A stretch of DNA of 64,000 nt from Cellulomonas marina (lineage in GTDB: Bacteria > Actinomycetota > Actinomycetes > Actinomycetales > Cellulomonadaceae), in the NCBI RefSeq assembly GCF_900111925.1, contig NZ_FOKA01000002.1:62001-126000 (forward strand). Direction: 5' to 3'. The number at the start of each line of letters is the position of its first letter. The first letter of the stretch is position 1. Shown in pieces: positions 15,947 through 21,576 of the stretch. A program made the translations under genes and the position numbers. Under the pieces are notes generated by a model. It was not told where the DNA came from. It did not search any database and saw nothing but the letters and a program-made list of their open reading frames with translations.

Positions 15947-17185
15947 TCAGGTGCCGGGCAGCGCGAGCATGCGGTCGAGGGCCACGCGCGCCCAGTGGGC
16001 GACCTCCGGGTCCACGACGATGCGGTTGACCGTCCGCCCGGCGACGAGGGACTCCAGGGTCCACACGAGGTGCGGCAGGTCGATGCGGTTCATGGTGGAG
16101 CAGAAGCACACCGTGTCGTCGAGGTAGCGCACGGTGAGGTCGGGGTGCGCCGCGGCGAGCCGGCGGACGAGGTTGAGCTCCGTCCCCACGGCCCACGAGG
16201 AGCCGGGCGCGGCCGCGTCCAGCGCGCGGATGATGTACTCCGTCGAGCCGACCATGTCGGCCGCCGTGACGACCTCGTGGCGGCACTCGGGGTGGACGAG
16301 GACCGTCACGGCCGGGTCGGCCGCGCGGTGGTCGGCCACGTTCTTCGCGGTGAAGCGCCCGTGCACCGAGCAGTGCCCCCGCCACAGGATCATGCGGGCG
16401 GCCCGCAGGGCCTCGGGCGTGACGCCGCCGCCGGGCCGGTGCGGGTCGAGGACGACGCAGGCCTCCAGCGGCAGCCCCAGGGCGCGCACCGCGGTGTTCC
16501 GGCCCAGGTGCTGGTCCGGCATGAAGAGCACCTTGCCCGTGCCCTGGAGCCCGCCCACCTGGTCGAACGCCCAGCGCAGCGCCGTCTCGGCGTTGGAGGA
16601 CGTGCAGACCGTGCCGCCGTGCCGACCCGTGAAGGCCTTGATGGCGGCGGAGGAGTTCATGTACGTGACCGGCACCGTCGAGGCCGCCACGCCGGCGTCG
16701 GCCAGCACGTCCCACGCCTCCTCCACCTGGTCGAGCGTCGCCATGTCCGCCATGGAGCACCCGGCGGCGAGGTCCGGCAGGACCACGGCCTGGGCGTCGG
16801 AGGTGAGGATGTCGGCTGACTCGGCCATGAAGTGCACGCCGCAGAACACGACGAACTCGGCGTCCGGACGCGCCGCGGCCTCCCGCGCGAGCTTGAAGGA
16901 GTCGCCCGTGACGTCGGCGAAGGCGATGACCTCGTCGCGCTGGTAGTGGTGGCCGAGGACGAACGCGCGGTCGCCCAGGGCGGCCCGCGCGGCCCGGGCG
17001 CGCTCGACGAGGCCCGGGTCGCCGGGGGCGGGCAGCGCCCCCGTGCACTCCACGCCGCGCTCGGAGGCGAGGTCGCTCCGCCGGCCGAGGAGGAGCAGCG
17101 CCGAGCCCGCGGGCTCGGCGAATCCCGTCACGGTGGCCGTCGGGGTCACGGTGGCGGTGACGGTGCCGGTGACGGTGGCGGTCAT
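15947..17185 (-). CDS. nadA: quinolinate synthase
   Basis: This protein of about 412 residues condenses iminoaspartate with dihydroxyacetone phosphate to quinolinate for NAD synthesis. The three 4Fe-4S cysteines are seen in VFCGVHFMAESADIL, HPECRHEV and CFCSTMNRIDLPHL. LGHHYQRDEVI, GDSFKLA and the MPDQHLGRNT motif are also conserved. No nadB or nadC is adjacent. The first 20 residues are a low-complexity Thr/Val repeat not expected in the family. ATG 17185 is preferred because GATGAT ends 7 nt upstream; ATG 17197 is the alternative. Confidence 0.93.
   Translation of the reverse strand: MTATVTGTVTATVTPTATVTGFAEPAGSALLLLGRRSDLASERGVECTGALPAPGDPGLVERARAARAALGDRAFVLGHHYQRDEVIAFADVTGDSFKLAREAAARPDAEFVVFCGVHFMAESADILTSDAQAVVLPDLAAGCSMADMATLDQVEEAWDVLADAGVAASTVPVTYMNSSAAIKAFTGRHGGTVCTSSNAETALRWAFDQVGGLQGTGKVLFMPDQHLGRNTAVRALGLPLEACVVLDPHRPGGGVTPEALRAARMILWRGHCSVHGRFTAKNVADHRAADPAVTVLVHPECRHEVVTAADMVGSTEYIIRALDAAAPGSSWAVGTELNLVRRLAAAHPDLTVRYLDDTVCFCSTMNRIDLPHLVWTLESLVAGRTVNRIVVDPEVAHWARVALDRMLALPGT
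17123..17185 (-). repeat. Thr-Val coding microrepeat at the nadA 5' end
   Basis: Alternating ACC/GTC-type codons encode TATVTGTVTATVTPTATVTG. A matching GTGACGGGGACGG-type array lies inside the divergent gene at 17367-17412. The two arrays flank the shared intergenic region. Confidence 0.75.
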
Positions 17186-17229: not shown

Positions 17230-18399
17230 GTGCACGTCCTCGTCGTCCCTGACCGCGTGCCCCGTGCCGCCGCCGACGCCGTCGTCACCGGCTGGCGGGA
17301 CGCGGCTCCGCACGACGACGCGACCGTGCTCGTGGTGCCGGACGGCGGCCCCGGGTGGGCCGACGCGGTGACGGGGACGGGGACGGTGACGGGGACGGTG
17401 ACGGTGACGGGGCCCGGCGTCCACGTCGAGCTGCCCGCCGCGGACCCGGCGGAGCCGTCCGGCGGCGCCGCCGACGCCGCCGTCGTGCTCGACGGGCTGT
17501 CGCGCGCGAGGGCCGGCGACGACGGTCGGGCGCGGTCGACGGAGGGCCGCGCGCGGTCCCTGACCGTGGCGCTCGGCACCCCGGGGACCCCCGACGCCGG
17601 GGCCGGGCTGCTGACGGGCCTGGCCGACGCCCTCCTGCCCGGGGGCGGGTCGGCCCGGCCGTCGGCAGGGTCCCCGACGGGGGCGCCGACGTGGCTGCCC
17701 GCGCTGGCCCGGGCGTTGGCCGACGTCGACCTCGTGGCGGTCGCCCCGGCGCCGACGCCGCTGCTCGGGCTCCGGGGGACCGCCGCCGGCCTGGCGGCGG
17801 ACGGCGTCCTCGACCCGGGGGCGGCCCAGGCGCTGGAGCAGCGGCTCTCGGTGCAGGCGCACGCCTGGGTCGCCGCGCTGGGCGACGCCGCGCGGCCCGA
17901 CCTCCTCGTCGGTCCGGGGGCACGCACCGCGAGCCGGTTCACCCGGGCGCCGGGCGCCGGGTCGCACGGTGGCGCCGGCTTCGCGCTCGCCCTCGTCGGG
18001 GCGCGGCTCCTGCCGGGACCCGCGCACGGGGCGCACCTCGTCGGGCTCGCGGGTGCGGCCGCGGCGGCGGACCTCGTCGTCGTCGTCCGGGAGGGGCTGG
18101 AGCACGTGGACCTCGACGGGACCGTGCTGGCGCAGGCCCTGGCGGCGGCGGGCGCGCAGGGGGTGCCGCTCGTCGTGCTCGCGCCACGGGTGCCGCCGCT
18201 CGCGGGCGGGCTGCGCGGCACCGGCGTCGCCGCGGCCTACGCCCCGCTCGGGGGCGGCACGCCACCGGACGGGGGCGTGGCGGGCGCGGGCACGTGGGCG
18301 GCGCTGGCGGCGAGGGTCGCCCGCACGTGGTCGCCCGCGTCCTGGGCGGGTGCGTACGCTGGAGGACGGCAGCACCCGCGCACCCGGGAACATCCGTGA
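17230..18399 (+). CDS. degenerate glycerate kinase-like protein
   Basis: This 389-residue protein is related to GlxK-type glycerate kinases: overall length, VLVVPDRVP at the start, LGTPGTPDAGAGLLTGLADALLPGG for the usual GGSATNDGGxG(M/L) loop, and VSVQAHAWV/DLVVVVREGLEHVDLDGT towards the end. The key motifs are eroded: the conserved DSFKGSL is replaced by DRVPRAA, the GGSATNDGG loop is altered, the GRTDxQT loop is GPGARTASRF, and there is no lysine in the protein. It may be a non-catalytic paralogue. M. tuberculosis has a glycerate kinase-like gene (Rv2205c, from memory) next to the erpA homologue, as here. An internal TVTGTVTVTG repeat is unusual. Confidence 0.7.
   Translation: MHVLVVPDRVPRAAADAVVTGWRDAAPHDDATVLVVPDGGPGWADAVTGTGTVTGTVTVTGPGVHVELPAADPAEPSGGAADAAVVLDGLSRARAGDDGRARSTEGRARSLTVALGTPGTPDAGAGLLTGLADALLPGGGSARPSAGSPTGAPTWLPALARALADVDLVAVAPAPTPLLGLRGTAAGLAADGVLDPGAAQALEQRLSVQAHAWVAALGDAARPDLLVGPGARTASRFTRAPGAGSHGGAGFALALVGARLLPGPAHGAHLVGLAGAAAAADLVVVVREGLEHVDLDGTVLAQALAAAGAQGVPLVVLAPRVPPLAGGLRGTGVAAAYAPLGGGTPPDGGVAGAGTWAALAARVARTWSPASWAGAYAGGRQHPRTREHP
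18355..18360 (+). promoter_or_regulatory. -10 element TACGCT for erpA
   Basis: TACGCT within the 3' end of the preceding gene would start an erpA transcript near 18367 with a leader of about 124 nt. Confidence 0.4.
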
Positions 18400-18490: not shown

Positions 18491-18865
18491 ATGACCGAGA
18501 CCACCCAGGCCCCGCAGACGACCACCACGAAGCCGGACACCCACGGGGTCCTGCTCACGGACGTGGCGGCCGGCAAGGTGCGCAGCCTGCTCGAGCAGGA
18601 GGGTCGGGACGACCTGCGCCTGCGCGTGGCGGTGCAGCCCGGCGGCTGCTCCGGCCTGATCTACCAGCTCTACTTCGACGAGCGCCTGCTCGACGGCGAC
18701 GTCACGAAGGACTACGACGGTGTCGAGGTCGTCGTGGACCGCATGAGCGTGCCCTACCTCGAGGGGGCGACGATCGACTTCGCCGACACCATCGAGAAGC
18801 AGGGGTTCACCATCGACAACCCCAACGCCGGCTCCTCCTGCGCCTGCGGCGGCTCCTTCAGCTGA
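18491..18865 (+). CDS. erpA: iron-sulfur cluster insertion protein ErpA (A-type carrier)
   Basis: This 124-residue A-type carrier has the three cluster-binding cysteines GGCSGL and SSCACGGSF. The conserved core LLTDVAAGKVRSLLEQEG to NPNAGSSCACGGSF is full length after a short Thr-rich head. It carries Fe-S clusters to apo-targets; nadA and the Rieske protein nearby are plausible clients. ATG 18491 follows GAGGGAG. A long leader makes control by an iron- or cluster-sensing factor possible, but no such site is evident. Confidence 0.94.
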   Translation: MTETTQAPQTTTTKPDTHGVLLTDVAAGKVRSLLEQEGRDDLRLRVAVQPGGCSGLIYQLYFDERLLDGDVTKDYDGVEVVVDRMSVPYLEGATIDFADTIEKQGFTIDNPNAGSSCACGGSFS

Positions 18866-18964: not shown

Positions 18965-19300
18965 TCACGAGGGGGCGTCCGGGTCGGTCGTCCGCACGGT
19001 GAGCCGTGCGCTGCCGTCGGGCTCGTCGGTCCGGGCGACGAGGGCGTGCCCGCGCATCCGCGCCCACGCGGGCACGTCGGACAGCGCGGCGGGGTCGGTG
19101 GTCAGCACCTGCAGGAGCGACCCGGGCGGCGCCGCCGCCGCGGCCCGCGCGAGGTGCACGACGGGCAGCGGGCAGAGCAGGCCGCGCGCGTCGACGACCT
19201 CGACGACGCCGTCTGGAGCCCCGCTCACGGGTCCGGCCACGGGTCCGGCCCCCGGTCGGCCCGCAGGTCCGGCCACGGGTCCGGTCGTGGGTCCGGTCAC
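18965..19300 (-). CDS. TusA/SirA-family sulfur carrier-like protein
   Basis: This protein of about 111 residues has a C-terminal TusA fold (about residues 32-108) with the sulfur-accepting motif RGLLCPLPVV (C43; CPxP consensus). Family members accept persulfide from a cysteine desulfurase. Here the start GTG 19300 overlaps the stop of the desulfurase-like gene, so the two are translationally coupled. The first 28 residues are a Gly/Pro/Val repeat of seven 12-bp units, not part of the fold; a later GTG (residue 25) could be the true start. It is the second gene of a two-gene leftward unit. Confidence 0.8.
   Translation of the reverse strand: MTGPTTGPVAGPAGRPGAGPVAGPVSGAPDGVVEVVDARGLLCPLPVVHLARAAAAAPPGSLLQVLTTDPAALSDVPAWARMRGHALVARTDEPDGSARLTVRTTDPDAPS
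19217..19300 (-). repeat. seven 12-bp tandem units at the tusA-like 5' end
   Basis: Units of the GTGGCCGGACCC type encode VTGP, TTGP, VAGP, AGRP, GAGP, VAGP and VSGA in exact 12-bp register from the start codon. Confidence 0.85.
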
Positions 19301-20460
19301 AGGTGCGACGCCCCGAGGGACCCCCGCACCTCGCGGACCAGCCCGGGGAGCACGTCGGCGAAGCGCTCCACGTCCGCCGTGGCGGTGCCCGGCGGGAGCG
19401 CGAGCCGCACGTTGCCGTGCGTGAGGACGCCCATGGCGGTCAGCACGTGGCTCGGCTCGAGCGTGCTCGACGAGCAGGCGGAGCCCGAGCCCACGGCGAA
19501 CCCGGCGGCGTCGAGCCGCCCGACGAGGGCCTCCCCGTCGACGTAGAGGCAGGAGAAGGTCAGCACGTGGGGGAGGCGGTCCTGCGGGTCGCCGACGACC
19601 TCGACGTCCGGCACCTCGGCGGCCACGCGCGCCCTCAGGCGCGCGACGAGGGCGCGGCGGGCGGCGTCGTCGGCGTCCCGGGCGGCCAGCCGCTCCTCCA
19701 GCGCGACGGCGGCGGCCAGCGCGACCGGCACGACGACCCCGCCGGGGAACCCGCCGGTCAGCGGCGCGTCCTCGTCGGACGGCCCGACGGGCGCACGCCG
19801 CACGCCCGCGCGCACGGCGAGGACGCCGAGGGGAGCCGGGGCGCCCCAGTCGCCGGCGTCCGCCGTGAGCAGGTCCCACCCGTCCGGCAGGGCCACGTGC
19901 CCCGCCGCCGCGCCGGCGTCCACGAGGAGCGGCACGCCCGCCGCCCGTGCCGCGGACGCGGCCGCGTCGACCGGCTGGCGCGTCCCCACCTCGCCGTTCG
20001 CGACCTGCAGGGCCGCCAGGGCGACGCCCGGCGCCCCCGCCGCGGCGGCGAACGCGTCGGCGTCGACCCGCCCGAGCCGGTCCACGGGGACGGTGCGGCG
20101 GGTGCCGGCCGCGTCCGCCGCGTGCAGCACGGCGGCACGCTCGACGGCCGGCACGACGACGTCCGCGCCGACCCGCCGCCGGCCGCGCGCGACCGTCAGC
20201 ACGGCGGCGTGCAGGGCCTGCGTGTGCGACGGGGCCAGCGCGATTTCCTCCGTCCGCGCGCCGAGCCCGGCCGCGAGGGACTCACGGGCACCGTCGAGCA
20301 GCGCGCGGGCGCGCCGGCCCTCGGCGTGCAGCCGGCGGGGGTCGCCCCACCCCTCGTCGAGGGCCGCCAGCAGGGCGTCCCGCACGCGGGGGGAGGGCGG
20401 GGCGTGCCCCGCCGCGTCGAGGACCACGCGGGGGGTCGCGACGGGCGCGGACGGCGGCAC
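19297..20460 (-). CDS. cysteine desulfurase-like protein with no lysine (PLP site lost)
   Basis: This 387-residue protein aligns along its length with class V/NifS-IscS desulfurases. It keeps the active-site cysteine loop GSGSACSSSTLEPSHVL (C329), ANGEVGTRQPV (N155), LLVDAGAAAGH (D181) and the C-terminal VRLALPPGTATADVERF. The PLP lysine segment, normally S-x-H-K-x-x-G-P, reads TADAGDWGAP with D204 at the lysine position, and the whole protein contains no lysine. The PLP-stacking His (VERAAVL), the Gln after D181 and the GGxExxxRxGT segment are also lost. Ordinary PLP desulfurase chemistry is therefore not possible. The gene is divergent from ctaC and overlaps the tusA-like gene. Leaderless start: TAGCGT lies 6 nt before GTG 20460. 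Confidence 0.85.
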   Translation of the reverse strand: MPPSAPVATPRVVLDAAGHAPPSPRVRDALLAALDEGWGDPRRLHAEGRRARALLDGARESLAAGLGARTEEIALAPSHTQALHAAVLTVARGRRRVGADVVVPAVERAAVLHAADAAGTRRTVPVDRLGRVDADAFAAAAGAPGVALAALQVANGEVGTRQPVDAAASAARAAGVPLLVDAGAAAGHVALPDGWDLLTADAGDWGAPAPLGVLAVRAGVRRAPVGPSDEDAPLTGGFPGGVVVPVALAAAVALEERLAARDADDAARRALVARLRARVAAEVPDVEVVGDPQDRLPHVLTFSCLYVDGEALVGRLDAAGFAVGSGSACSSSTLEPSHVLTAMGVLTHGNVRLALPPGTATADVERFADVLPGLVREVRGSLGASHL

Positions 20461-20466
20461 GGGGCC

Positions 20467-20472
20467 ACGCTA
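20467..20472 (-). promoter_or_regulatory. -10 element TAGCGT, leaderless start of desulfurase-like gene
   Basis: On the minus strand TAGCGT ends 6 nt before GTG 20460 with no ribosome binding site. Together with the lack of frameshifts, it indicates the gene is still expressed. Confidence 0.6.
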
Positions 20473-20667: not shown

Positions 20668-21576
20668 GTGCACCTGCAGAACCCCCGCCGGCGGCGCCGT
20701 GCGGCCGGCCTCCGGGCGTCCGCCCTGGGCCTCGCCGTGCTGGTGCTGGCCGGCTGCTCGTCGGACCAGCTGGCACGCGGCTACCTCCCGGGCGACTCCG
20801 CGAACGAGGTCACGAACCAGACCGGTCGCATCATGAGCCTCTGGGTGGGCTCCTGGATCGCGGCGCTCATCGTCGGCGTCATCACCTGGGGCCTCATGCT
20901 CTGGTGCGTCGCGGTGTACCGGAAGCGCAAGAACGACGACGTCCTGCCGGTGCAGCTGCGCTACCACGTGCCGCTCGAGATCATGTACGTGATCCTGCCG
21001 ATCCTCATGGTCGGCGTGCTCTTCTACTACACGGCGCGCGACCAGCACGAGATCCAGACGGTCAGCGGCGACCCGGACCTGCGGGTGCAGGTCATCGGCA
21101 AGCAGTGGAGCTGGGACTTCAACTACCTCGACGACGACGTGTACGACTCCGGCGTGCAGGCGGAGGGCGTCGGCCAGGAGGGCACGCTGGCCGAGCAGAT
21201 CACGCTGTACCTGCCCGTCGACGAGACGGTCGAGTTCACGCTGAACTCCCGCGACGTCATCCACTCGTTCTGGGTCCCGGCGTTCCTCTACAAGATGGAC
21301 GTCATCCCCGGGCAGACGACGAACACCTTCGAGGTCACGCCGACCAAGGAGGGCACGTACGTGGGCAAGTGCGCCGAGCTGTGCGGCGAGTACCACGCGT
21401 CGATGCTGTTCAACGTCAAGGTCGTCTCCCGCGAGGAGTACGACGAGCACATCGAGGCGCTCCGCGACGCGGGGCAGACCGGGCAGCTGGGCATCGACGC
21501 CAGCAAGCTGCAGGACCTGGACAGCGTGCGCCGGCAGGGTGAGCCCGCCGGGGCGTCGCAGGGGAGCGAGGACTGA
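20668..21576 (+). CDS. ctaC: cytochrome c oxidase subunit II (lipoprotein)
   Basis: This 302-residue protein has a basic N-terminus, a hydrophobic signal and lipobox VLVLAGCS (lipidated Cys about residue 29), two transmembrane helices ([25 protein letters not shown] and the [17 protein letters not shown] region) and a periplasmic cupredoxin domain. CuA ligands are present in [13 protein letters not shown] and [12 protein letters not shown]. It receives electrons from the cytochrome bc1 di-haem subunit. GTG 20668 follows GAGAGG. Its stop overlaps the ctaD ATG. Confidence 0.96.

Follow-up and report, generated by a model that had tools for sequence, protein, structure and literature searches.

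A desulfurase-like protein lacks the PLP lysine and is encoded next to a TusA-like carrier

The window, a stretch of 64,000 nucleotides from Cellulomonas marina (contig NZ_FOKA01000002.1), contains on its reverse strand a gene for a protein of the NifS/IscS type, followed by a gene for a small TusA-like sulfur carrier. The features of this region are as follows.

15947..17158 (-): quinolinate synthase, presumably nadA, named from its sequence; part of a conserved block
18491..18865 (+): ErpA, A-type Fe-S carrier, convergent neighbour (NCBIfam PRK13623, 117.8 bits, cut-off 117)
18965..19300 (-): TusA-like sulfur carrier with CPLP motif, Cys43 encoded by TGC 19174-19172 (PF01206, 67.7 bits, cut-off 28.6)
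19297..20460 (-): desulfurase-like protein without the PLP lysine, 387 residues, GTG start, frame intact
19474..19476 (-): TGC codon of C329, at the place of the persulfide cysteine (C328 in E. coli), by codon check
19849..19851 (-): GAC codon of D204, at the Schiff-base lysine position (E. coli K206), by alignments and codon check
20467..20472 (-): TAGCGT, a -10-like box 6 nt ahead of the GTG start (leaderless pattern)
20671..21576 (+): cytochrome c oxidase subunit II, which we take to be ctaC from its sequence; divergent neighbour, start chosen by eye

The desulfurase-like protein scores 84.5 bits against Aminotran_5 (PF00266, cut-off 21.5). Against the NifS equivalog TIGR03402 it reaches 188.2 bits, far below the cut-off of 530.75, and a lysine-bearing orthologue, L150, likewise remains below it at 279.6 bits. 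A profile built from 20 lysine-less sequences matched solved desulfurase chains over positions 14-378, establishing whole-chain homology to NifS/IscS. In alignments, D204 falls opposite K206 of E. coli IscS and opposite the Asp that A. fulgidus IscS has there, and C329 lies in a normal Cys loop, GSGSACSSS. Both assignments, as well as the intact reading frame, had been made in the initial annotation and were borne out by the alignments and the codon check.

Measured against the E. coli IscS pocket, the stacking H104 has become R108, Gln183 Ala, the PLP-phosphate residue Ser203 D201, and His205 Gly; Thr76, D181 (E. coli D180) and R352 (E. coli R354) are retained. The stacking His, the Gln and a GGxExxxRxGT segment had been described as lost, and all are absent from the window protein. 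The missing segment (GGGHERG..SGT) is not specific to the loss of the lysine, since its canonical form is also missing in the lysine-bearing orthologues. Similarly, the complete absence of lysine from the 387 residues is correct as a count and is not in itself striking, because the neighbouring genes are poor in lysine (1.7% on average in eight of them) and two are also free of it, namely a glycerate-kinase-like gene (0/389) and the TusA-like gene (0/111). The term lysine-free thus reflects mostly high-GC composition; what stands out is the catalytic site.

The glycerate-kinase-like gene (17230-18399, +) scores only 50.9 bits against a cut-off of 168.45. Its counterparts in five genomes share 36-41% identity with it, compared with 79-85% for NadA in those genomes, and it is possibly a non-enzymatic relative. 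Repeats of 6 bp (GGTGAC / CGGGGA) lie at 17144-17182 and 17366-17412, in the 5' parts of nadA and of this divergent gene.

A leaderless promoter had also been proposed, and the wider sample agrees: of 144 lysine-less loci, counted with near-duplicates, 103 have TANNNT 4-9 nt ahead of a start codon in frame, compared with 0.03 in shuffles. A scan for the sigma-70 consensus near the window locus gave no match, and neither a tRNA, an Rfam family nor a terminator was found there. The TusA-like ORF, which at 37.1 bits stays under the cut-off of the NCBIfam TusA equivalog (78), carries the only TusA domain found by a search of its own genome. The CPLP cysteine noted initially is present; the 4-bp overlap with the desulfurase-like ORF exists only if the start is GTG 19300. 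This start codon is a choice, because the frame is open up to 19879, and the first 30 residues are a 12-bp repeat (CACGGGTCCGGC, 19226-19304) of low complexity, which makes the real start uncertain.

A single, old loss explains the missing lysine

Orthologues were collected from 58 relatives, from 248 genomes of the order and 398 of the phylum (both drawn from more), from fetched regions and from a scan of named records, of which the best 80 of 545 were confirmed. Ten loci (L137, L139-L146 and L153), which were judged paralogous or too distant and all carry the lysine, were dropped, and matches in G013, G015, G017, G035 and G046 are left out of the count. Among the 191 distinct orthologues obtained, the lysine is absent from 125 and present in 66. 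It is replaced by Asp in 98, Ser in 16, Ala in seven, Thr in three and Glu in one, and 95 of the 125 have no lysine anywhere. The persulfide cysteine, C329 in the window, is present in 191/191.

The initial annotation had considered that close relatives might have the lysine, with the window copy decaying or mis-sequenced. None of the 91 orthologues from its own genome, genus, family and order has it, nor does any of the 125 in the clade. Outside the order it is present in all 31 (other orders of the class, 28/28; rest of the phylum, 3/3). The named records (best 80 of 545) comprise 34 sequences without the lysine, from Cellulomonadaceae (18), Promicromonosporaceae (10), Sanguibacteraceae (2) and Jonesiaceae (1), with two lacking a family and one labelled Sphaerisporangium (L170), and 35 with it, from Streptosporangiaceae (23), Kribbellaceae (8) and Micromonosporaceae (3), with one lacking a family. 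L170 shares 81% identity with a Cellulosimicrobium copy, and its label appears to be wrong. A 'Proteobacteria' MAG record (L164) is nearest to Cellulomonas copies, and an 'Acidobacteria' MAG record (L226) to Microbispora.

On a tree of 104 rows, from which six pocket columns and L126 were left out, one change suffices to account for the presence or absence of the lysine, with the 65 lysine-less rows in one clade (SH-aLRT 91); the residue that occupies the site has changed at least eight times. The missing lysine is real and old, and a single loss explains the pattern. Among close pairs, dN/dS (NG86) has a median of 0.144 in the lysine-less proteins (range 0.063-0.269, 139 non-independent pairs) and of 0.186 in the lysine-bearing ones (314 non-independent pairs). 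A value near 1, named initially as a refuting result, is far above this median, and the gene is therefore not decaying.

Much of the PLP pocket is lost and the Cys loop is kept

As a reference for conservation we took the 116 positions at which 23 lysine-bearing rows, some of which share a genome, show conservation of 95% or higher. Across the 65 lysine-less rows, 51 of these positions retain at least 90%, and 20 drop below 50%. The deepest pocket losses are at K206 (0% kept), S203 (5%), A75 (15%) and H104 (18%), with T76 at 43%; beyond the named pocket, E. coli positions 254 (5%) and 356 (8%) are also deeply affected. Q183 is absent from the losses listed, and some lysine-bearing copies also lack the Gln; the stacking His is kept by some lysine-less relatives. 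Retained positions include S324, G325, S326, C328, P335, S336, D180, E156 and R354, with C328 at 100% and S324-S326, D180 and R354 at 90% or more. Much of the pocket has thus been lost along with the lysine, and the Cys loop has been kept.

Work on E. coli IscS reports that H104Q, Q183E and K206A each abolish desulfurase activity, that R354K is active, that R354 binds the carboxylate of the cysteine substrate and that K206A still held some PLP (PMC9978102). Since mutation of H104, Q183 or K206 abolishes activity, PLP chemistry by the lysine-less proteins appears very unlikely; some pocket ligand may remain, because D180 and R354 are retained.

The gene block predates the loss of the lysine

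We counted neighbours only at loci with room for them. The presumed ctaC is divergent next door in 83/85 lysine-less and 40/42 lysine-bearing loci, ErpA lies downstream in 80/83 and 33/43, NadA lies downstream in 70/78 and 30/42, and TusA is adjacent in 64/86 and 42/43, respectively. Since ctaC, ErpA and NadA are common neighbours of lysine-bearing genes as well, the block is older than the loss, which argues against a new role with the oxidase. The connection with oxidase assembly, drawn initially from the divergent ctaC gene, is consequently unsupported. The TusA-like neighbour, whose conservation had been raised as a question, is usual among lysine-less loci without being universal.

The lysine-bearing desulfurase-TusA orthologues of family f21 (L150, L066 and others), which we take to be Streptomyces, share the ctaC place, the Cys loop and the TusA partner, and differ in having the His-Lys pair and an intact-looking PLP site. 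The C. marina genome itself retains SufS, as well as a NifS encoded beside mnmA, each with a His-Lys pair; the only NifU_N/IscU-type protein found in this genome adjoins sufS on another contig. The identities of sufS and mnmA are our presumption from sequence.

TusA or a GCARLL protein usually accompanies the desulfurase-like protein

Fusion to TusA (more than 440 residues, with CPxP in the tail) occurs in 23/66 copies that have the lysine and in a single copy without it (L059/L132 of G112), and Pfam confirmed both domains in the two fusions tested, L132 and L150. Some Cellulomonas genomes and several further lineages lack linked TusA. In the examined Cellulomonas genomes of this kind, a small and divergent TusA-like protein in which GCARLL replaces CPxP is encoded elsewhere (L245 and its kin, in G003 and others). 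It keeps a Cys and the DP..DLP aspartates and scores 27.2 bits, slightly less than the 28.6 that Pfam requires for TusA. Among 36 Cellulomonas genomes, C. marina included, 17 have linked TusA, 16 have GCARLL, none has both and three have neither (G004, G012 and G013). Both are present in one genome of f21 and in four of f15.

We searched the 58 relatives with E-value limits of 1e-13 (CPxP proteins) and 1e-28 (GCARLL proteins). One or the other was found in 37 of the 38 genomes with a long orthologue match, the exception being G043; in G046 TusA is on another contig, at the contig edge. At the same thresholds, neither was found in the 18 genomes without an orthologue, among which G041 has a weak match (1.6e-4) and G012 has matches in frames of more than 800 residues. 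Two genomes have only fragments of the orthologue; G035 has GCARLL and G013 has none. Across 90 genomes, 53 have linked TusA only, 18 GCARLL only, five both and 14 neither, one of the 14 being the paralogue L153. In a test of linked TusA against GCARLL that takes phylogeny into account, independent pairs agreed 5.5 to 0.3 of 8; with p at a median of 0.0625 (0.031-0.45), the association is then no more than suggestive. Given its adjacency and the lysine-less fusion, TusA is the likely partner of the desulfurase-like protein. Strict dependence on linked TusA is rejected by family f9 and by part of Cellulomonas.

A second lysine-less copy, L126 (G182:C6), has a Cys-rich loop, GCGCTC, with a Cys at the aligned place, and its TusA-like neighbour has NPTT, the CPxP cysteine being lost. 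Both proteins have therefore changed.

The loop tip diverges in f9 genomes with neither partner

In E. coli, the structural report places the tip of the Cys328 loop in contact with TusA, the loop coming from the other subunit of the dimer (PMC2854127). The window pair resembles this complex in its two protein families, its docking helix and its Cys loop. It differs in that E. coli IscS is PLP-dependent and in the W45 and E49 contacts, which are replaced in lysine-bearing and lysine-less copies alike.

We compared the loop tip (seven-residue segment 330-336) between partner groups, leaving out L126, L127 and five lysine-less rows that had no GCARLL assignment. The match to consensus is 0.84 in 81 TusA-linked and 0.87 in 17 GCARLL sequences. 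Within f9, a single lineage, it is 0.88 in eight sequences with TusA versus 0.31 in 12 with neither partner, and over the whole protein the latter match at 0.63 versus 0.69 in their TusA-bearing kin. Among 309 seven-residue segments (L125 left out), the twelve largest drops all fall in 296-309 or in the Cys loop (328-337); the largest, at 297-308, lies outside the loop.

The 12 f9 orthologues nonetheless keep the Cys. TusA domains occur in seven of their genomes only within an open frame of more than 800 residues, and four genomes have none at all; L125, one of the 12, comes from G182, which also carries L126. Since these orthologues persist with their Cys, in four cases where no TusA domain exists, TusA cannot be the sole partner, and another partner must exist in f9.

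A PLP-free persulfide relay is the preferred explanation

To our knowledge, inactive IscS proteins are known only from archaea, and the open PMC papers (subscription papers not covered), in the portions available, yielded neither a bacterial inactive IscS nor a TusA-linked lysine-less protein. In the PDB, the lysine-less set comes closest to A. fulgidus IscS (4eb5; 4r5f is the form with Lys at the site), which is alike in chain-wide homology, in its Asp for the lysine and in its Cys, and differs in being archaeal, in working with IscU and in having Leu where the window protein keeps the substrate Arg. NFS1 and other chains give better matches to a lysine-bearing orthologue. As this orthologue prefers active enzymes, the A. 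fulgidus and bacterial losses may have been separate events, and we do not regard close kinship as the likely reason for the match. A. fulgidus IscS is reported to be without desulfurase activity (PMC7585200) and its Cys ligates the [2Fe-2S] cluster on IscU (PMC7585200; PMC5176006); Methanosarcina acetivorans IscS1 is alike in its missing catalytic lysine and differs in being archaeal and encoded with IscU1 (PMC7585200).

We hypothesize, at about an even balance of belief, that the window protein is a pseudo-desulfurase which, without PLP, relays persulfide to TusA-type sulfur carriers and serves them as a docking protein. By sequence it appears to retain the IscS framework and the mobile Cys loop, as well as most of the TusA-docking helix, and it could form no internal aldimine. 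C329 may be loaded with sulfane sulfur from SufS-SufU, from the NifS beside mnmA or from a small-molecule persulfide, and would hand it to Cys43 of TusA, which may pass it to a final target. Of the roles offered initially (relay, scaffold or regulator for TusA), relay or scaffold fits the comparative evidence best. More tentatively, a lineage at the rank of an order may have turned a desulfurase into a PLP-free transpersulfidase, with the pocket abandoned or re-used, the Cys loop becoming a dedicated TusA relay, and the carrier repeatedly swapped for the GCARLL protein while the loop stayed much alike.

It is unlikely that the protein is instead an Fe-S scaffold ligand like A. fulgidus IscS, its C329 ligating a nascent cluster on ErpA or SufU and giving no sulfur. 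This would accord with the archaeal precedent, which has the same Lys-to-Asp change, and with ErpA downstream of nearly all lysine-less loci, also of f9 loci without TusA. However, ErpA is also present in most lysine-bearing loci, so its link predates the loss of the lysine; the loop tip follows TusA; the one NifU_N/IscU-type protein found in the genome is beside sufS, so that an IscU partner of the A. fulgidus type does not lie alongside the window locus; and the A. fulgidus protein looks convergent. We give still less weight to a regulatory or hetero-oligomeric subunit that binds the active NifS or SufS and steers sulfur to TusA. Both enzymes are retained with their His-Lys pairs, and the E. 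coli report assigns the TusA-contacting loop to the other dimer subunit (PMC2854127), but a pairing with NifS or SufS is purely putative.

The retained D181 and R352, the latter matching an IscS residue that is reported to bind the cysteine carboxylate (PMC9978102), could also indicate a pocket with a new ligand or chemistry, such as a carboxylate-bearing persulfide or a metal, with which C329 would work. Asp at the lysine site goes together with Arg at the His site in 98/98 cases, but this pairing is concentrated in related rows, Arg is also found in 8/27 lysine-less rows without Asp, and the retained residues may be structural; we see a slight chance of this reading. That the protein is still a PLP desulfurase with a non-covalent cofactor is very improbable. 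The PLP held by K206A, the conserved D180 and R354 and the Thr76 of the window protein would speak for it, and the inactivity of K206A, H104Q and Q183E, each taken singly, and the Asp in place of the phosphate-binding Ser speak against it. A decaying gene or a sequencing error, contradicted by 125 lysine-less orthologues, by dN/dS values of 0.06-0.27 and by the conserved place, has practically no chance of being the answer.

The history of the gene matters in that the loss was single and old, that the sulfur-bearing loop has stayed conserved for a long time since, and that lysine-bearing orthologues at the same chromosomal place serve as natural controls. It is therefore testable whether a desulfurase scaffold can transfer persulfide sulfur in the absence of PLP. 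If annotated by the name of their family, the lysine-less proteins would be labelled cysteine desulfurases, and the sulfur supply in these genomes would be misplaced.
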